A stretch of 34,387 nt of DNA from an uncultured Pseudomonadota bacterium (lineage in GTDB: Bacteria > Myxococcota_A > UBA796 > UBA9615). A program made the position numbers and the translations under genes. Below, one piece after another: positions 18,571 to 27,999 of this stretch. Under the pieces are notes generated by a model that saw nothing but the letters and a program-made list of their open reading frames with translations, made no database searches and was not told where the DNA came from. The stretch covers positions 1-34,387 of the forward strand of contig CALAGR010000032.1 in assembly GCA_937891735.1 (NCBI GenBank), read 5' to 3'. How positions within the stretch are numbered: position 1 is the stretch's first letter; each line of letters starts with the position of its first letter.

Positions 18571-19962
18571 TCAGGATGACACAGAGCCTTGTTCGCTGTC
18601 TGGCTCGGCGGCTCCTTCGTCCCCTCCGCGGCGTCGTCGTCGGCGTCGTCGCCGCTTGCCGGACGTCTCCTCGGTGGACGAGGTGGGGTTGTTGGCCTGC
18701 CACGACGTCACCAGGGACAGGATCTCGTCGCCGAAGCCCTGCACCTGCCACACGCGCATCTCGTCGATGAGGGCGAAGTCCGCCAGGGTCGTGGGCTTGA
18801 GGGCGGCGATGTGCCGCAGCACCGTGTTGTTCACGATCATGGCCGGCGTGAGCTGGGCCTCGTCCGCCCGGGCGTTGCGCCACAGCTTCAGGGCGCCGAA
18901 CAGGGGCTCGTCGTCCCGGGTGTAGATCGGCACCTCGGGGCTCGTGCGGGGCGTGGTGCTCTCCTTCTTCGCAGGGATCGGGGTGGTGTCCTTGCGACCC
19001 GCGGCGACGGCCTCGAGAACGACGACCCCGTGGCGGCGGGCGATGTGGCTCTTGGGTCCCAGGGCGTCGATCAGCTGCTCCTGATCGGCGGGCCGGGCCC
19101 GGGCGATCTTGAGGTTCGCGTCGTTGCCCCAGACCTTGAACGCCGGACGGTTCTTCCGGGCCGCGATCTCGTCGCGCACCACGAACAACGCGCGCAGCAC
19201 GCGCTTGCCGACCTCATCGAGCTTGTTGGCGCCCTTCACCTTGAGGCAGCTGTCGGGATCGAAGGGGCGGCCGGTCCACTCGCGGGACTCGAGCAGCATG
19301 AACTCCTCGGCGAGCATCTCGCCCCGGTCCTGGGCTTCTGCGGCCTCCATGAGGATCTCGCGCAGCCGCGGCAGGTAGTGGGAGTCCAGCCGCGCATAGC
19401 CCAGGTGCTCCGGCAGCAGCGGGCGGTGCGACCAGTCGTGGCGCTGGTACTTCTTGTCGAGCTTGTCGCCGAAGTACTGGAGCACCAGGTCGCTGAGGCC
19501 GAAGCGCTCGTGCCCTGTGGCCTGGGCGGCGATCATGGTGTCCCAGATGGGGGAGATCTGGAATCCGTGGTCGCGCTTGAGGGACACCACGTCGTAGTCC
19601 GCGCCGTGGAAGATCTTGATGACGTCGGGGCTCTCCATGAGCTCCCGGAGCGGCTCCAGATCCGGCACCGCCAGGGGATCGACGACCCAGTCCATGCCGC
19701 TGTCGCCGGTCATCTGCAGCAGGCAGGTCTTCTCGGTGTAGGAGAAGAAGCTGTCTCCTTCGATGTCGGCGGCCAGGACCCGGGTTCCCTGCAGATCCGC
19801 GACGCACTCCTCCAGCTCCTGTGGCGTCGTGACGTAGCGGTAGCCGCGGTCGGACAGCGTCTCGATCGCCCGGGCGGGCAGGGTGGGCGCGTCGTCGTCG
19901 TGCGTCGAGGGTTCGTCGAGGTCAGCGGTCTCGGGGTCGGATTCGGTCACGAAGGCTCCCAC
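18571..19962 (-). CDS. rnd: Ribonuclease D with two HRDC-like regions and an Arg-rich tail
   Basis: LAADIEGDSFFSYTEKTCLLQM, IKIFHGADYDVVSLKRDHGF, WDTMIAAQ..GLSDLVLQYFG..DKKYQRHDWSHRPLLPEHLGYARLDSHYLPRL; C-terminal HRDC-like segments, then GK followed by about nine Arg. Confidence 0.9.
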   Translation of the reverse strand: MGAFVTESDPETADLDEPSTHDDDAPTLPARAIETLSDRGYRYVTTPQELEECVADLQGTRVLAADIEGDSFFSYTEKTCLLQMTGDSGMDWVVDPLAVPDLEPLRELMESPDVIKIFHGADYDVVSLKRDHGFQISPIWDTMIAAQATGHERFGLSDLVLQYFGDKLDKKYQRHDWSHRPLLPEHLGYARLDSHYLPRLREILMEAAEAQDRGEMLAEEFMLLESREWTGRPFDPDSCLKVKGANKLDEVGKRVLRALFVVRDEIAARKNRPAFKVWGNDANLKIARARPADQEQLIDALGPKSHIARRHGVVVLEAVAAGRKDTTPIPAKKESTTPRTSPEVPIYTRDDEPLFGALKLWRNARADEAQLTPAMIVNNTVLRHIAALKPTTLADFALIDEMRVWQVQGFGDEILSLVTSWQANNPTSSTEETSGKRRRRRRRRRGGDEGAAEPDSEQGSVSS

Positions 19963-20792
19963 CAGGTGCTGCGCCGGGCCACGAGGCCCTGGAGCAGGGC
20001 GAAGAAGGTCGGGCCCGCGGCGTCGGCGATCTCGGCGACGTGGGCGTGGTCGAGTTCGTCGCCGTCGCCGGCGGCGAGGTTGCTGATGACGGACAGGCCG
20101 CCGATCCTGCAGCCCATGTGGCGGGCCGCGATGGCCTCGAGCACGGTGCTCATGCCCACGGCGTCGGCGCCCATGGCGCGGACCATGCGGATCTCGGCGG
20201 GCGTCTCGTAGGTGGGCCCGAGCAGGCCGAAGTAGCTGCCCTCGGGCAGCTCGGCCCCGGCGGCCTTGGCGGCGGCGCGCAGCGCGTCGCTCATCCCGGG
20301 ATCCCAGGCGTTGGACATGTCGGGAAACCGGGGTCCGAGCGCGGGGTCGTTGGGTCCGATGAGGGGGTTCTGGCCCGTCAGGTTGACGTGGTCCGTGATC
20401 AGCATCAGCTGACCCACCTTGAAGCTCCGGTTCACCCCGCCCGCGGCGTTGGTGATCACGATCCCCCGGGCCCCAAGGCGCACCAGGGTGCGGATCGGGT
20501 GCACGACGGTGACTGGATCATGCCCCTCGTACAGATGCGCGCGGCCCCTGCAGCAGACCACCACGACCCCATCGAGGGTGCCCACGCAGAGCTCGCCGGG
20601 GTGTCCGACGACCGTCGTGCCGGGAAACCCGGGGATCTCCGGGTAGGGAATGGTGTGCAGATCGTCGAGTTTGCCTACGACGTCGCTGAGACCGGATCCG
20701 AGGATGAGCCCGACAAACGGCTCGGCGGTTCGGGGATCGGCGCTGCGTATGGCGTCGACCGATCGGTCAACGTCCGCGAGCACGCTGGACAT
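19947..20792 (-). CDS. punA: Purine-nucleoside phosphorylase
   Basis: 281 aa; GLILGSGLSDVVGKLD, FPGTTVVGHPGELCVG, RAHLYEGHDP, ITNAAGGVNRSFKVGQLMLITDHVNLTGQNPLIGPND, GPTYETPAEIRM, GADAVGMSTVLEAIAARH. Confidence 0.95.
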   Translation of the reverse strand: MSSVLADVDRSVDAIRSADPRTAEPFVGLILGSGLSDVVGKLDDLHTIPYPEIPGFPGTTVVGHPGELCVGTLDGVVVVCCRGRAHLYEGHDPVTVVHPIRTLVRLGARGIVITNAAGGVNRSFKVGQLMLITDHVNLTGQNPLIGPNDPALGPRFPDMSNAWDPGMSDALRAAAKAAGAELPEGSYFGLLGPTYETPAEIRMVRAMGADAVGMSTVLEAIAARHMGCRIGGLSVISNLAAGDGDELDHAHVAEIADAAGPTFFALLQGLVARRSTWWEPS

Positions 20793-20911
20793 GCGGCCTC
20801 CAGTTCAGCAGTCCCCCACCGGGCCAGGGCAGGCGACCTACCGCTCAATACGAACAGAGTACGGATTTACGACGCATCTGCAACCAAACGGGCTCGGTGC
20901 CGGGCGCGCCG

Positions 20912-22372
20912 TCAGCTGAGCAGCGTGCCCGCGATGTTTGCGGTCAGGAACGCCGCCAGGGTGCCCGCGATCATGGCGCGGACCCCGAGCTTCGCCAGAT
21001 CCGAGCGGCGGCTCGGAGCGATGCTGCCGATGCCCCCGAGCTGGATCCCGATGGAGCCCAGGTTCGCGAAGCCGCACAGCGCGTAGGTCACGATGATCAT
21101 GCTGCGTCGGGACAGGTCCCCCGACATCTGCGCGAGCTTGAGGTAGGCGACGAACTCGTTGAGGATCATCTTGATGCCCAGGAGCTCGCCGACCGCCGCG
21201 CACTCCGCCGCGGGCACGCCCATGGCCCACGCCAGGGGCCAGAACACGACCCCCACGATGCGCTCCAGGGTCAGCGGGTTGTCGATGCCGAACAGGGTCG
21301 AGGCCGCGCCCAGCAGGCCGTTGGCGAGGGCCACCAGCGCGATGAAGGCGAGCAGCATCGCACCGACGTTGAGCGCGAGCTTCAGGCCTTCCCCCGCGCC
21401 TCGGGCCGCGGCGTCCACCACGTTGATGTCGGTGGACTCGATGTCGAGCGTGAACTCACCGGCCGTCCGCGCCGTCTCGGTCTCCGGCCACATGATCTTG
21501 GCGATCACCAGGGCCGCGGGGGCGGACATCACGCTGGCGGCGATCAGGTGCCCCGCGATGTCGGGGAACACCCCGCTGAGCATGCCCACGTAGGCCGCCA
21601 TGACCCCGCCCGCCACCGTGGCGAACCCGCCCGTCATGACCGCGTTGAGCTCGCTCATCGTCATGTCCTGCACGTAGGGCTTGATGACGAGGGGGGCCTC
21701 GGTCTGGCCGACGAAGATGTTGGCCGCCGCTGACAGCGACTCCGCGCCCGACGTGCCCATGGTCCGGTACATCACCCAGCCCATGGCCCGGACCAGCAGC
21801 TGCATGACGCCCAGGTGGTACAGCACCGCCATCAGCGCCGAGAAGAAGATGATGGTGGGCAGCACGTTGAAGGCGAAGTACGAGCCCGTGGCGGCGAGGA
21901 GCGGCGCGCCCCCGGCGTCCGCGCTCGGGACCAGCGGCCCGAAGGGGTCTGTGGGGTCGGGCGTTCCCACGGGCACCACGTGGTCCACGAGGCCGCCGAA
22001 GATGAACCGCGCGCCCTCGGTGGAGTAGCCCAGAAGGGTCATCACCACGACGTTGAGCTGGTCGAACAGCCACGCGCCGGGCGCGGTCTTCAGGACGATC
22101 AGGGCGAAGACGAACTGCAGCCCCAGCCCCCAGCCGATCACCCGCCAGGGGACCCGCTTGCGGTCCGCGCTGAGCAGCCAGGCCAGCCCCAGCATGATGG
22201 GGATGCCGATGAGCGACTGCAGGCGGGACAGGATCGAGACGGGCTCGCTCGCCTTGCTGGCGATCACCGCGTCCAGGCCCTCCAGCGGCGCATCGGCCAC
22301 CGCTGCGCCGGTCAGCAGCAGGGCCGCGGCGGCGATGCAGAGCGCCAGCGACGCCCAGCGACCGAGCCTCAC
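20912..22372 (-). CDS. NupC/CNT family nucleoside transporter
   Basis: Likely GTG 22372 overlapping the deoA stop; SLIGIPIMLGLAWLLSADRKRVPWRVIGWGLGLQFVFAL, NIFVGQTEAPLVIKPYV, EFVAYLKL, CGFANLGSIGIQLGGIGSIAPSRRSDLAKLGVRAM. Confidence 0.95.
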   Translation of the reverse strand: MRLGRWASLALCIAAAALLLTGAAVADAPLEGLDAVIASKASEPVSILSRLQSLIGIPIMLGLAWLLSADRKRVPWRVIGWGLGLQFVFALIVLKTAPGAWLFDQLNVVVMTLLGYSTEGARFIFGGLVDHVVPVGTPDPTDPFGPLVPSADAGGAPLLAATGSYFAFNVLPTIIFFSALMAVLYHLGVMQLLVRAMGWVMYRTMGTSGAESLSAAANIFVGQTEAPLVIKPYVQDMTMSELNAVMTGGFATVAGGVMAAYVGMLSGVFPDIAGHLIAASVMSAPAALVIAKIMWPETETARTAGEFTLDIESTDINVVDAAARGAGEGLKLALNVGAMLLAFIALVALANGLLGAASTLFGIDNPLTLERIVGVVFWPLAWAMGVPAAECAAVGELLGIKMILNEFVAYLKLAQMSGDLSRRSMIIVTYALCGFANLGSIGIQLGGIGSIAPSRRSDLAKLGVRAMIAGTLAAFLTANIAGTLLS

Positions 22373-23664
22373 TCGGCGCCCACCACGAGCGCCCGGTCGA
22401 GCAGCCGCAGGGCCTCGGCGGTGGCGGATCCCGAGGCGACCCGCAGCTGGGCCCAAGGCTGGCCGGATCGCACGTGCTGCCCCACCTCGACCAGCAGCTG
22501 GACCCCTACGCCGGGGTGCGGGGCCTGGCCGTCCGCGCCACGCCCGCCGCCCAGCGCGGCGGCTGCGAGCCCCACGTCCAGCGCGTCCAGGTGGGTGATG
22601 AGGCCCGAGTCGGTGGCGAACACCGGCAGCGCGCTCACGTCCGCGGCGCCGAGCAGGCGCGTGGGGTCGTGCAGCGCGGCGACGTCGCCCCCCTGGGCCT
22701 GCACCATCGCCTCGAACCGGGCCAGGGCAGAGCCGTCATCGAGGGTCGCGGCGAGCCGGGCGCGCAGGGGCTGGGCCGCCGAGGGGAGGCCGAGCCGGTC
22801 CGCTTCGCCCGACGCGGTCACCGCCTCCTGGGCGAGGTCGAGCACCAGATCCCGCAGGTCCTCGGGCCCCCCGCCGGACAGGCAGGCCACCGATTCCTCC
22901 ACCTCCATCGCGTTGCCGACCGTGAGGCCGAGGGGCGTGGACATGTCGGACAGCAGGGCGTGCACCTTGCGGCCCGCGCCCCGACCGATGGCCACCATCA
23001 CGTCCGCCAGGTGCTGGGCCGAATGCTGGTCCTTCATGAAGGCGCCGCTGCCGACCTTGACGTCCAGGATGAGGGTCTGCGCCCCCTCAGCGAGCTTCTT
23101 GCTCATGATCGAGGGCGCGATGTGATCGACGGTGGGAACCGTGGAGGTGCGGGAGCGCAGGGCGTACAGCGTGCGATCCGCGGGCACGAGGTCCGCGGTC
23201 TGGCCGGTGATGACGCAGCCCACGGCCTGCAGCACCGCGTCCATCTCGTCGGACGAGAGATCGGTGCGAAACCCCGGGATCGCCTCGAGCTTGTCCAGGG
23301 TGCCGCCGGTGTGGCCGAGCCCGCGCCCGGAGATCATCGGCACCGCGAAACCCACCGCGGCCATGACGGGGGCCCAGATCAGGCTGACCTTGTCTCCCAC
23401 GCCGCCGGTGCTGTGCTTGTCGACGGTGGGCCGGTCCAGGTGGGTCCAGTCCAGCACCTCGCCGCTGTTCATCATCGCCAGCGCGTAGCTGGTTCGCTCG
23501 GAGTCGGTCAGACCGCGGCAGAAGATCGCCATGAGCATGGACGCGAGGTGCACCTCGGGGGCGCTTCCGTCGGCCGCCGCGCGCACGAACGCGGTGATCG
23601 CCTCCTGGCTCAGGGTCCCCCCGTCGCGCTTGATGGCGATGAGGTCGCGAAGATCGGTTGTCAT
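22369..23664 (-). CDS. deoA: Thymidine / pyrimidine-nucleoside phosphorylase
   Basis: 431 aa; DKHSTGGVGDKVSLIWAPVMAAVGFAVPMISGRGLGHTGGTLDKLEAIPGF; DHIAPSIMSKKLAEGAQTLILDVKVGSGAFMKD. Confidence 0.96.
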   Translation of the reverse strand: MTTDLRDLIAIKRDGGTLSQEAITAFVRAAADGSAPEVHLASMLMAIFCRGLTDSERTSYALAMMNSGEVLDWTHLDRPTVDKHSTGGVGDKVSLIWAPVMAAVGFAVPMISGRGLGHTGGTLDKLEAIPGFRTDLSSDEMDAVLQAVGCVITGQTADLVPADRTLYALRSRTSTVPTVDHIAPSIMSKKLAEGAQTLILDVKVGSGAFMKDQHSAQHLADVMVAIGRGAGRKVHALLSDMSTPLGLTVGNAMEVEESVACLSGGGPEDLRDLVLDLAQEAVTASGEADRLGLPSAAQPLRARLAATLDDGSALARFEAMVQAQGGDVAALHDPTRLLGAADVSALPVFATDSGLITHLDALDVGLAAAALGGGRGADGQAPHPGVGVQLLVEVGQHVRSGQPWAQLRVASGSATAEALRLLDRALVVGAE

Positions 23665-23673
23665 GGGGTCTCG

Positions 23674-24519
23674 CTAGTAGCCCGCGGCGCCCTGGCCGCC
23701 GGTGACCACCTCGACCGAGGAACTCGCCCCGAGTCGGTCTGCGCCCGCTTCGACCATGGCCCAGGCGTCGGCGTTGTTGCGTACGCCGCCCGAGGCCTTG
23801 ACCTTCAGGCCCGCGGCTCCGACGACGCGCTTCATGAGCCGCACGTCCTCGATGGTGGCGCCGCCCCCACCGAACCCGGTGCTGGTCTTGACGAAGGCCG
23901 CGCCCGCCTCCCGCGACAGCACGCAGCCGGCGATCTTCTCTTCGTCGGTGAGCTTGGAGGTCTCCAGGATCACCTTGAGGGGGTAGGGCTTGGACGCCTC
24001 CACGGTCATGACGAGATCGGCGAGCACGGTCTCGAAGTCGCCGGACTTCAGGGCGCCGATGTTGATGACGGTGTCGATCTCCTTGGCGCCGAGCTTGATG
24101 GCCTCCCGGGCCTCGAAGGCCTTGACCTGGGGCAGGGAGGCTCCGAGGGGGAAGCCGACCACGCAGATGGTCAGCACGCCGGTGCCCTGCAGCAGCTCCA
24201 CGCACAGGGGCACGTTGCTGCTGTTCACGCACACCGAATAGAAGCGGTACTTCGCGGCTTCCTCGCACAGCTGCACCAGATCGCTCCGGGTGACCTCGGG
24301 CTTGAGCATGGTGTGGTCGATCTTGCGGGCGATGCGGTGGTCGTCGCGGCCCGCGGCGTGGATCAGCTCGGTGGGCACGAACGTGGTGTTGGCGTTCCAC
24401 CCGGCCCCGTACTGCCACTGGAAGGCGGCATCCGAGGAGCGGCCGGGCTCACCGGTGAGGGCGCGCTGGACCCGCTCCACCAGGGCATCGACGAGGGCGT
24501 TCATCTCGTGGGGGTGCAT
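23674..24519 (-). CDS. deoC: Deoxyribose-phosphate aldolase
   Basis: 281 aa; KIDHTMLKPEVTRSDLVQLCEEA, VGFPLGASLPQVKAFEAREAIKLGAKEIDTVINIGALKSGD, VKTSTGFGGGGATIEDVRLMK, VKASGGVRN. Confidence 0.96.
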   Translation of the reverse strand: MHPHEMNALVDALVERVQRALTGEPGRSSDAAFQWQYGAGWNANTTFVPTELIHAAGRDDHRIARKIDHTMLKPEVTRSDLVQLCEEAAKYRFYSVCVNSSNVPLCVELLQGTGVLTICVVGFPLGASLPQVKAFEAREAIKLGAKEIDTVINIGALKSGDFETVLADLVMTVEASKPYPLKVILETSKLTDEEKIAGCVLSREAGAAFVKTSTGFGGGGATIEDVRLMKRVVGAAGLKVKASGGVRNNADAWAMVEAGADRLGASSSVEVVTGGQGAAGY

Positions 24520-24547
24520 GACGGCGAGTGTAGCGGAGGACGCCGTC

Positions 24548-24580
24548 GCCGACCCCTGCCGACCCGCGGTCGGCGGGTCG
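24548..24580. promoter_or_regulatory. Candidate operator: phased GCCGACC repeats and overlapping palindromes between divergent genes
   Basis: GCCGACCC at 24548 and 24558; reverse complement GGTCGGC at 24568; perfect CGACCCGC-N5-GCGGGTCG at 24560-24580; perfect GCCGACC-CGC-GGTCGGC at 24558-24574. Confidence 0.5.
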
Positions 24581-24590
24581 TCAAGCTAGG

Positions 24591-27347
24591 GTGCGCGCCG
24601 AGGGACCCCTGAGCACCGCACCGAGAAGCCGCACAGTCACCAAGGAACTCGACCGGAAGCTGGGCTTCCTGGCGGTGTTCTCGATCTCTGTGGGCGCGAT
24701 GCTGGGCTCGGGGATCTTCGTGCTGCCGGGGCTCGCCGCCGCCAAGGCCGGTCCCTGGGTCGCGCTGTCGTACCTGCTGGCCGGGCTGCTGGTGCTTCCG
24801 GCCGTCCTGAGCAAGGCCGAGCTCGCGACGGCGATGCCCGTAGCCGGCGGAACGTACGTGTACGTGGATCGGGCCATGGGGCCCTGGATGGGCACGATCG
24901 CGGGGCTGGGCACGTGGTTCGCGCTGTCCGCCAAGACGGGGTTCGCGGTGGTGGGGCTCGCGTCCTACCTCGTGCTGTTCACGAACCTGCCGGCGGTGCC
25001 AGTCTCCCTGGGCGTGCTGAGCCTGCTGCTCGTGGTGAACATGCTCGGCGCCGGCAAGGTCTCTGGGTTGCAGGTGCTGATCGTGGGGGTCTGCCTCGTG
25101 GCGCTCGCCGCGTTCGCGATTCTGGGTGGGATCGCCTCGGATCCCACGCACTTCCAGCCGGCCTTCCCCCTGGGAAGCGAGGGGATCCTGGCCGGCGCCG
25201 GCTTCGTGTTCGTCTCCTACAACGGCGTGACCAAGGTCTGCTCGATCGCCGAGGAGGTGAAGAACCCGGCGCGCAACATCCCATTGGGCATGCTCAGCGC
25301 CCAGTTCACGGTGATGGCCTTGTACGCAGTGGTGGCCTGGGTGATCACGGGGAACGTGCCCTACGAGGAACTGAGCCACGACATCACTCCGGTGGCGACG
25401 GCTGCGCACGCGATCGCAGGTCCCGGGGGGAGCCTCATCATGGCGGTGGTCGCGGTCCTGGGACTCGCGTCGATGTGCAACGCGGGGATCCTGTCCACCT
25501 CCAGGTTTCCGTTCGCCATGGGGCGGGACTCGCTGCTGCCGCCGCTGATGGAGCGGGTCAGCGAACGCTTCGGCACCCCGGTTCCAGCGATCCTGGTCAC
25601 CGCAGTCCTGCTGTTCACCCTGGTGCTGGGGCTGCCCGTCGAGAAGCTGGCGAAGCTCGCGAGTGGCTTCACCATCTTCATCTTCTGCGTCGTGAACCTC
25701 GCGCTGGTGGTGCTGCGGGAGTCCGGCGCCCGCTGGTACCGGCCCACCTTCAAGGCGCCGCTGTACCCCTGGACCCAGCTGGTGGGCATCGTCGGGGGCC
25801 TCTGGCTCCTGTCGGAGCTCGGCTCCGTCGCGGTGGTCGCCATCCTGGGGGCCCTCACCACCGGAACGCTGTGGTACTTCGGCTACGCCCGCAAGCGCAC
25901 GAAGCGGCGCAGCGCGTTCCAGTACCTCGTCGGCGAGGTGGAGGTGCTGCAAGCCACCGAGAAAGCAGAGCGGGCCGAAGCCCAGCCCGACCGCCCCGCC
26001 AGCGTGGTGGTGCCGGTGTTCGGCGGTGAGCCTGCCCCGGAGCGGTTGGTTCGCCTCGGGGCGGCGTTCGTGGCGGGGGGCGTGCTCGAGGTCCTGCGGT
26101 TGGAGGAGATCCCGGAGGCCGTACCGCTCCTGTCGTTTCGCCGACCCGATGAGGAGACCCGTCGGCTCGCCAACGAGGCCGTGGCCGTCGGCGACGCGGT
26201 GGACGTGACGGTGGAGTTCCACGACGTCCTGACCCACAACGCCACCGAGGCGCTGCACCGCCACGCGCAGGCCATCGAGGCCGACTGGATCGTGATGGAG
26301 TGGCCGGGCCGCAAGGAGGTGCGCTTCCTGATCCGGCACCCCATGTCCTGGTGGATCGAGCACCCCCCGTGTGATCTCGCGATCTTCCTGGACCGGGCAG
26401 GGGAGGGGGACGGCGACACCTCCGATGACTTCCGGCGCATCCTGCTGCTGACGGAGCCGGGCCCCTACGACTCGCTGGTGGTGCACGTCGCGGACATGCT
26501 GGCCCAGGATCAGGGCGGCACCATCACGCTGTATCAGCCCGTGGCGCAGGACCTGCCCGCGAGTCGCATGGCGGATCACGAGGCGTACCAGAAGCAGCTC
26601 GCCCGCCTGTGCACCAGCCCCGTGGAGCGCAAGATCGTGCGCGCCAAGGACATCTACGAGAACATCCGGGTGGTCAGCAAGGACTACGACCTGCTCATCC
26701 TCGGGGCGTCGTCCGAGCTCGGCTGGCGCACCCTCGTGCAGGGCTCCCTGGGCCAGAAGGCGGCCGACGCGGCGGTCTGCTCGGTGCTCAAGGTCAAGGC
26801 CCCGCGGCACCGGGTGCACAACCGCCTGAGCCTCACCCTCACCGACACGGACGAGCAGCCGTCGGCGGACGAGATCCTGCGGGGCGCGGCGTTCGCAGCC
26901 CGGATCCCCGTGGAGCGTTACCAGGACCTCTTCGCGGCGCTGGGGTTGGCGCTGTCGAAGAGCACGAACGCTCCGCCGGAGGACATCATGCGCGCGTTCG
27001 AGAGGCGGGAGAAGCAGCAGAGCACGGCGCGGCCCCAAGGGGTGTCCCTGACTGCGCCCACGCTGCGGGGCATCGCGCGCACCACCCTGGCGGTGATCAC
27101 GACCGAGCGGCCGGTGGAGTTCCAGGCTCCGGGCCGTCCCAAGGTGGACGTCCTCATCGCCGTCATCGCGCCTCCGGGGGATCGGCAGACCCAGCTGTGG
27201 CTGTTCGAGCAGATCGCCCAGCTGGTGACGCGGGGGGACCTGCTCGCGGGGCTGCGCGGCGCCACCGACGCAGCGGGCCTGCGGGCCGCCATCGAGGACT
27301 CGGCGGTGCGCCTGGGTGGCCTGTTCGGCGGCATCACGGTCGAGTAG
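24591..27347 (+). CDS. APC-family amino acid permease with two USP-like domains and a C-terminal PTS EIIA type-2-like domain
   Basis: 918 aa; LGFLAVFSISVGAMLGSGIFVLPGLAAAKAGPWVALSYLLAG...YVYVDRAMGPWMGTIAG; cytoplasmic RRILLLTEPGPYDSLVVHVADML..DYDLLILGASSE (USP-like); terminal EDIMRAFERREKQQSTARPQGVSLTAPTLRG...RPVEFQAPGRPKVDVLIAVIAPPGDRQTQLWLFEQIAQLV (EIIA-like). Confidence 0.85.
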   Translation: MRAEGPLSTAPRSRTVTKELDRKLGFLAVFSISVGAMLGSGIFVLPGLAAAKAGPWVALSYLLAGLLVLPAVLSKAELATAMPVAGGTYVYVDRAMGPWMGTIAGLGTWFALSAKTGFAVVGLASYLVLFTNLPAVPVSLGVLSLLLVVNMLGAGKVSGLQVLIVGVCLVALAAFAILGGIASDPTHFQPAFPLGSEGILAGAGFVFVSYNGVTKVCSIAEEVKNPARNIPLGMLSAQFTVMALYAVVAWVITGNVPYEELSHDITPVATAAHAIAGPGGSLIMAVVAVLGLASMCNAGILSTSRFPFAMGRDSLLPPLMERVSERFGTPVPAILVTAVLLFTLVLGLPVEKLAKLASGFTIFIFCVVNLALVVLRESGARWYRPTFKAPLYPWTQLVGIVGGLWLLSELGSVAVVAILGALTTGTLWYFGYARKRTKRRSAFQYLVGEVEVLQATEKAERAEAQPDRPASVVVPVFGGEPAPERLVRLGAAFVAGGVLEVLRLEEIPEAVPLLSFRRPDEETRRLANEAVAVGDAVDVTVEFHDVLTHNATEALHRHAQAIEADWIVMEWPGRKEVRFLIRHPMSWWIEHPPCDLAIFLDRAGEGDGDTSDDFRRILLLTEPGPYDSLVVHVADMLAQDQGGTITLYQPVAQDLPASRMADHEAYQKQLARLCTSPVERKIVRAKDIYENIRVVSKDYDLLILGASSELGWRTLVQGSLGQKAADAAVCSVLKVKAPRHRVHNRLSLTLTDTDEQPSADEILRGAAFAARIPVERYQDLFAALGLALSKSTNAPPEDIMRAFERREKQQSTARPQGVSLTAPTLRGIARTTLAVITTERPVEFQAPGRPKVDVLIAVIAPPGDRQTQLWLFEQIAQLVTRGDLLAGLRGATDAAGLRAAIEDSAVRLGGLFGGITVE

Positions 27348-27467: not shown

Positions 27468-27736
27468 ATGATGGCGAGGTCCCTCACGGAGTGCGCCTTG
27501 ACCTCCCCAGCCCCAGCACCGACGAGCTTCCTGGACTTCGTCCGTCGCTTCTCCACGACCAACGCCTGCATCGAGTTCCTGGCTTCGTGGCGCTGGCCCG
27601 ATGGGTTCGAGTGCCCACGGTGCGGCAGCTCAACTACGTCGTGCGCCGCGTCATGGGGACAGAGCCCACCACGAGGCGCCAACTGGTTCACGGCGACCAG
27701 GAGCCCCTCGCTGTCCTCACCCCTGTGGCTGCCTGA
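27468..27736 (+). pseudogene. Decayed N-terminal fragment of an IS1595/ISXO2-type transposase (zinc-ribbon region)
   Basis: TSFLDFVRRFSTTNACIEFLASWRWPDGFECPRCGS in the 27468 frame; homology-like continuation QLVHGDQEPLAVLTPVAA in a second frame; no downstream catalytic region. Confidence 0.7.
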
Positions 27737-27737
27737 G

Positions 27738-27999
27738 GTCTCGCGCCAAGCCGCAGAGCCGCGAAGGAGCCCACGTGCTACCTGAAAACAAGGCCGCGAC
27801 CGCCGTCGTAGATGCCTCGTACCTGATCCACACGACCTGGGGACCGGGGCTGCTGGGTCGGCCTGTTCCATCGCGCTGGAGGCAGAGCTGCGCAAGACGC
27901 CTTCCGCATGGACCTCGTCGTGGATGACTGCTTGATCGTTGAACTGAAGTCCGTCGGGCCGACAACGTCTTTGCGCCTCCGCGGCTCTGCGCGGGAACT
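27738..27999 (+). mobile_element. Inverted-repeat-bounded decayed GxxExxY (PDDEXK_3) cassette
   Basis: Left TCTCGCGCCAAGCCGCAGAGCCGCGAAGGAG and the reverse complement of the right repeat TCCCGCGCAGAGCCGCGGAGGCGCAAAGACG match 23/31 without gaps; coding relic between them. Confidence 0.6.
27781..27960 (+). pseudogene. GxxExxY-family (PDDEXK_3) pseudogene, frameshifted and internally deleted
   Basis: Fragments in three frames: ENKAATAVVDASYLIHTTWGPGLL, SIALEAELRKT, FRMDLVVDDCLIVELKSV; same order as in intact GxxExxY proteins. Confidence 0.7.

Follow-up and report, generated by a model that had tools for sequence, protein, structure and literature searches.

An EIIA-type domain without a phospho-acceptor histidine on an APC-USP-USP permease from a bacterial class largely lacking HPr

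One gene of the window (the whole 34,387-nucleotide stretch of DNA that was analysed) encodes an amino-acid-type permease whose C-terminal segment resembles a PTS EIIA domain of type 2, with Thr-Ala in the place of the catalytic Pro-His. The question raised by this locus is whether such a domain can still take part in phosphotransfer and, if it cannot, what it may be kept for. A preliminary description, made from the sequence, had proposed a pseudo-EIIA serving as a sensor or allosteric module. Permeases fused to USP, transporters bearing EIIA domains, and SLC4 proteins with regulatory domains of the EIIA fold are each already known separately. No description of the APC-USP-USP-EIIA architecture, or of a pseudo-EIIA on APC permeases, was found in the open-access literature, and what appears new against the searchable literature is the combination of these features in one bacterial protein, with His-keeping relatives and loss of the PTS documented side by side.

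Gene and domain layout

The open reading frame encodes 918 residues from a GTG start and is conserved at full length in many genomes (Table 1). Homologue alignments begin at residues 13–18, and residues 1–21 were modelled at pLDDT below 50, so the true start may lie some codons downstream. An 845-residue minus-strand open reading frame running across the permease gene (24501–27038) was discounted as a high-GC shadow frame. The order read from the sequence in the preliminary description, with a permease core followed by two USP-like segments and a C-terminal EIIA domain of type 2, was borne out by Pfam and by the full-length model (pLDDT 81), in which a second alpha/beta domain is visible at the first USP segment.

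Table 1. Features of the permease gene (window positions) and of SLC4-type genes on other contigs (contig positions)
Feature	Position	Strand	Basis and remarks
Whole gene, APC-USP-USP-pseudoEIIA	24591–27347	+	918 aa; start codon uncertain, possibly up to ~17 codons downstream
APC permease core, CAT/BcaP-like, residues 24–429	24660–25877	+	Pfam PF13520 AA_permease_2, 6.3e-46, 157.6 bits
First USP-like domain, residues 466–604, no ATP-binding loop	25986–26402	+	Pfam Usp E 1.3e-4; alpha/beta domain in model
Second USP-like domain, residues 615–736	26433–26798	+	Best Usp stretch; whole protein 33.3 bits, cut-off 24
EIIA type-2 fold domain without His or Cys, residues 758–907	26862–27311	+	Pfam, model, Foldseek
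Arg806 (CGG), column of PtsN Arg57, kept	27006–27008	+	Alignment
Ala822 (GCG), column of phospho-acceptor His73 of E. coli PtsN	27054–27056	+	Ungapped and family alignments
Gln868 (CAG), column of second active-site His (PtsN His120)	27192–27194	+	Gln in 9/10 clade copies
SLC4-type gene, genome G005 (same genus)	L070 1–1947	-	HCO3_cotransp >550 bits; His column kept (AIVHDQ)
SLC4-type gene, genome G034	L169 1146–3080	-	HCO3_cotransp >550 bits; His column lost (AICVKR)
SLC4-type gene, N-terminal part only, genome G002	L069 1384–1788	+	PF00359 35.6 bits; His column kept (ALVHCR)

For the permease core, the closest solved relatives by sequence were 6f34 and 5oqt, a bacterial CAT homologue, and 6f34 covered the core of the full-length model with a TM-score of 0.85 to the target (Foldseek). 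Scores against the NCBIfam models for the BcaP equivalog and the TIGR00909 subfamily stayed below the cut-offs (219 of 690 bits and 243 of 556.8 bits, respectively). Taken alone, the first USP segment scored 23 bits with Usp, just below the cut-off of 24; in its alignment the ATP motif G-x2-G-x9-G-[ST] was missing, and a search of its profile against the PDB gave no match. The second USP domain aligned with part of this motif (G705..S708..G718-S719), short of the full pattern, and in homologues it also matched CCC_C_2nd_pro (prokaryotic CCC C-terminal domain) weakly, under the cut-off.

Two groups of known transporters resemble this core-plus-USP arrangement. APC-USP-USP permeases of haloarchaea and Bacteroidota have the same core and tandem USP tail (~35–42% identity over residues 6–740), but those among the matches listed end after the second USP domain and carry no EIIA domain; fusion of USP to an amino-acid permease has been reported for archaea (PMC12159084). 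SLC12 transporters (NCC, NKCC, KCC) were aligned by Foldseek over ~880 columns, taking in the APC core and the USP-like C-terminal lobes, and in KCC1 the lobe has a USP-like pocket to which ATP binds (PMC8280820). The orientation of the domains differs from that in the window model, however (rmsd 18–21 Å), the core of the window protein has a CAT/BcaP-like sequence, and nothing in the alignment points to an EIIA domain in SLC12. In sequence searches, SLC12 chains were weak (E 1.9e-4 at best), far behind the CAT homologues.

The surroundings of the gene were compared by all-against-all BLAST of seven homologous loci, among which no flanking gene was shared; only the permease gene and its shadow frames were matched. 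Divergent from the permease gene in the window, with ~70 bases between, lies a nucleoside salvage cluster (19947–24519, minus strand; purine nucleoside phosphorylase family, NupC-like transporter, thymidine/pyrimidine phosphorylase, DeoC). Just downstream of the permease gene, a short frame (27468–27785, plus strand) with an IS1595 transposase zinc-ribbon is probably a transposon remnant.

The EIIA fold, its active site, and the PTS of the genome

PTS_EIIA_2 (PF00359) matched residues 780–902 with a score of 31.5 bits, above the curated cut-off of 27. Prediction of residues 742–918 with AlphaFold2, using 29 family sequences, produced a model at pLDDT 89.4 and pTM 0.84, and the closest solved fold was that of EIIA-Ntr (1a6j, Foldseek E 2.0e-10, TM 0.71/0.82), followed by 2a0j and 3urr. 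The next matches were other EIIA domains, interleaved with the SLC4 cytosolic domains of AE2, AE3, NDCBE, and band 3 at E-values from 1.5e-6 to ~2e-4. The C-terminus was thus matched to EIIA by both profile and fold, and the alignments placed no histidine at the active site.

The motif GVSLTAPT lies exactly at 27039–27062, as first described, and was aligned by phmmer to the ..GVAIPH.. of solved EIIA-Ntr chains without gaps, with Thr821-Ala822 (codons 27051–27056) standing for Pro-His. The proposed check of the His column was made by running the alignment, and the residue found there was Ala822. To locate the columns of PtsN His73, His120, and Arg57, positions were counted along the printed alignment between 1a6j and a relative that keeps the His. 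Both His and Cys are absent from the whole of residues 758–918. Compared with EIIA-Ntr (PtsN, PF00359), the window domain has in common the fold, a profile score above the cut-off, and the Arg57 column, but it has neither the acceptor His nor His120, is fused to a permease, and is encoded in a genome without EI or HPr. A further residue of the domain, Arg865 (27183–27185), was invariant in 29/29 full-length relatives of one alignment, with or without the His; its column holds Thr117 in E. coli PtsN, and it may make a contact peculiar to the fused domain.

In the window assembly (7.87 Mb, 95% complete), profile searches returned 0 matches for HPr and 0 for the EI N-terminal domain. The single PF00359 match of the genome is the permease gene itself, and its sole PEP-utiliser C-terminal domain sits in a reading frame judged to encode PPDK by inspection of the sequence. 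HPr was likewise missing from 64 of the 71 genomes of the class to which the window belongs. The PF00359 matches that were read in HPr-less genomes sit on transporters (APC-USP-USP, APC-TrkA_C, or SLC4), with no free PtsN among them. With the acceptor His missing from the domain, and neither HPr nor enzyme I detectable in the genome, phosphorylation by the classical route would not be possible. The earlier proposal that this is not a phosphotransfer domain is therefore supported by the sequence, the fold, the alignment, and the missing His, and the lack of HPr and EI is its strongest independent support. More generally, an annotation as "PTS EIIA" in this phylum often does not denote phosphotransfer.

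Retention and loss of the histidine among relatives

Searches were carried out on 379 genomes of the phylum, on 71 genomes of the class, and on a contig collection, and the full APC-USP-USP-EIIA architecture was found in Myxococcota, Planctomycetota, and one Poribacterium. Outside the class, the PH motif (PHAT-like) is kept in 27 genomes (other Myxococcota classes, Planctomycetota, and Poribacteria), 26 of which contain HPr. Within the class, all 11 copies found are without the His (SLTAP, ALTAP, ALTGP, AISAP, ALSAP, ALISP, SLSAP, ALSGF, ALTAT, ALIGI, and AVSGV at the site), and 10 of these 11 genomes have no HPr. His-less copies are carried by 12 genomes altogether, 10 of them without HPr. 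The two exceptions are G245, where HPr was found and the EI N-domain was not (assembly 80% complete), and G263, where two His-less copies (L032 and L154; GVALCMAS and GVALAFAT) occur despite HPr and EI, a case of His loss without PTS loss.

Ten class copies were of sufficient length for the tree, where they form a single branch with full support, and the two copies of G263 represent a separate loss of the His. Counted over the architecture, as the preliminary description had proposed, losses of the His fall in one clade, the window's own class, and in one small group, with the His kept elsewhere. Loss of the His and loss of the PTS in the class are essentially one evolutionary event, and genome counts are therefore not independent. 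The main family offers two independent pairs and the sister family described below one or two, so significance is out of reach for His loss against HPr loss, and the Fisher values for His against HPr (1e-6 and 0.026) ignore relatedness and are descriptive only.

The sister architecture, APC-EIIA-TrkA_C, which allows a check that is partly independent, occurs in the same phylum (e.g. L005, L041) and shares with the window protein an APC core and an EIIA domain, but it has no USP domains, ends in a C-terminal TrkA_C (tested in L005), and occupies a separate branch of the permease tree. Here the His is replaced by Asn in L005, L042, and L039 (APNMRH) and by Tyr in L160 (HISYKT), and these losses are confined to HPr-less genomes (4/4). 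All 8 HPr-containing genomes keep the His in this architecture, as do three HPr-less ones (G153, G095, G218), a pattern that fits His loss lagging behind PTS loss, as relaxed selection predicts, though it is no proof of such a sequence of events. With these three genomes on one side and G263 on the other, the link between His and PTS is not strict.

Constraint on the domain and its proposed role

In a comparison over 99 codons with the nearest copy, L006 from the same family, dN was 0.26, dS 0.69, and dN/dS ~0.38, dS being poorly estimated at 92% GC3. The His-less clade conserves R806 (9/10), E807, T812, G817, R865, and R889, has lost the loop glycine, the Pro-His, and the second His, and has gained common residues of its own at Gln868 (9/10) and Trp870 (8/10). 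Relative to the APC core, its EIIA domain diverges faster than that of the His-keeping clade (ln-identity ratio 2.10 vs 1.57). This is a mix of relaxed and new constraint, rather than free decay, and R806, R865, Q868, and W870 are the residues of interest for function.

In our judgement, the EIIA-fold tail has probably been uncoupled from the PTS and, independently of it, regulates the amino-acid transporter from within the molecule or serves in its oligomerisation. In an ancestor, a PTS, perhaps of the nitrogen type, would have phosphorylated the domain, and the uptake of amino acids would in this way have been tuned to PEP and nitrogen status. According to a review, PtsN in its unphosphorylated state binds to transporters such as TrkA and YcgO and regulates them, and nitrogen status is reported by PTS-Ntr (PMC13104625). 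When the PTS was lost in the class, this input would have been cut and the His no longer selected, with small residues settling in its place; the domain may have been retained because its unphosphorylated form was already making useful contacts within the protein, either to the USP domains or to the permease core. At present it would be stuck in an unphosphorylated-like form, acting by way of such contacts to the USP lobes or to the core. The locus would then allow the survival of a signalling domain beyond the loss of its pathway to be traced, with living relatives that have both the His and the PTS and others that have neither.

The alternative with most in its favour is that the tail is a decaying remnant, functionless since the PTS was lost and harmless at the end of the protein. 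The quicker divergence of the EIIA domain relative to the core in the His-less clade and the loss of the active-site glycine and Pro-His would both be expected of such a remnant, but the frame is intact in all copies at ~35% mutual identity, purifying selection is seen against the nearest copy, residues are conserved and Q868 and W870 newly shared, and the EIIA fold is confidently predicted. As a general expectation, moreover, 160 useless residues are seldom kept throughout a class in bacterial genomes, and we consider decay unlikely.

Less probable still is a switch that continues to be phosphorylated, on Ser or Thr of the loop (e.g. Thr821, Thr824) and by an unrelated kinase. The loop of some clade members is rich in Thr and Ser (TAPT, SAPT, SAPS), and Myxococcota are known for their many Ser/Thr kinases, but positions 821 and 824 vary, and the two copies reading LIGIAK and VSGVIA do not keep Ser/Thr at both of them. 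Least probable of the three is a PTS missed through assembly gaps or divergent EI and HPr, with the domain as its non-catalytic docking partner: the assemblies are drafts of 72–99% completeness and G245 has HPr without the EI N-domain, but the same searches detect HPr and EI in nearly all His-keepers and in control genomes, and 64 HPr-less genomes out of 71 are too many for gaps.

For the favoured reading, that of a PTS-independent regulator or oligomerisation part, a precedent is given by the SLC4 anion exchangers (band 3/AE1, AE2, AE3, NDCBE), which likewise have an EIIA fold as the regulatory domain of a transporter; the cytosolic domains of AE1 and NBCe1 resemble this fold (review, PMC4664831). 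In SLC4 the domain is N-terminal, longer, and attached to an SLC4 membrane core, whereas that of the window protein is C-terminal and without SLC4 sequence membership; by Pfam, PF00955 (HCO3_cotransp) is absent from the window protein, and its membrane core is APC. By analogy with this precedent, and with the retained constraint, the role of sensor or allosteric module suggested at the outset is plausible, and the protein may serve as a bacterial model for an EIIA fold that comes to regulate a transporter, as in the animal proteins band 3, AE2, and NBCe1. The wider proposition, that a PTS domain was converted into a phosphate-independent regulator after PTS loss, echoing on an unrelated membrane core a possible step in SLC4 and occurring in at least two permease architectures, seems to us evenly balanced.

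Bacterial SLC4-type bicarbonate transporters with an N-terminal EIIA-like domain, placed as is the cytosolic domain of band 3, were also observed (Table 1). PF00359 scored ~23 bits in the two full proteins (L070, L169), and all three genomes concerned (3/3, with that of L069) are without HPr. On L069, a plus-strand frame at 773–1375 reads on inspection as a beta-type carbonic anhydrase and ends ~9 bases before the EIIA-like gene, an arrangement that suggests a bicarbonate operon.
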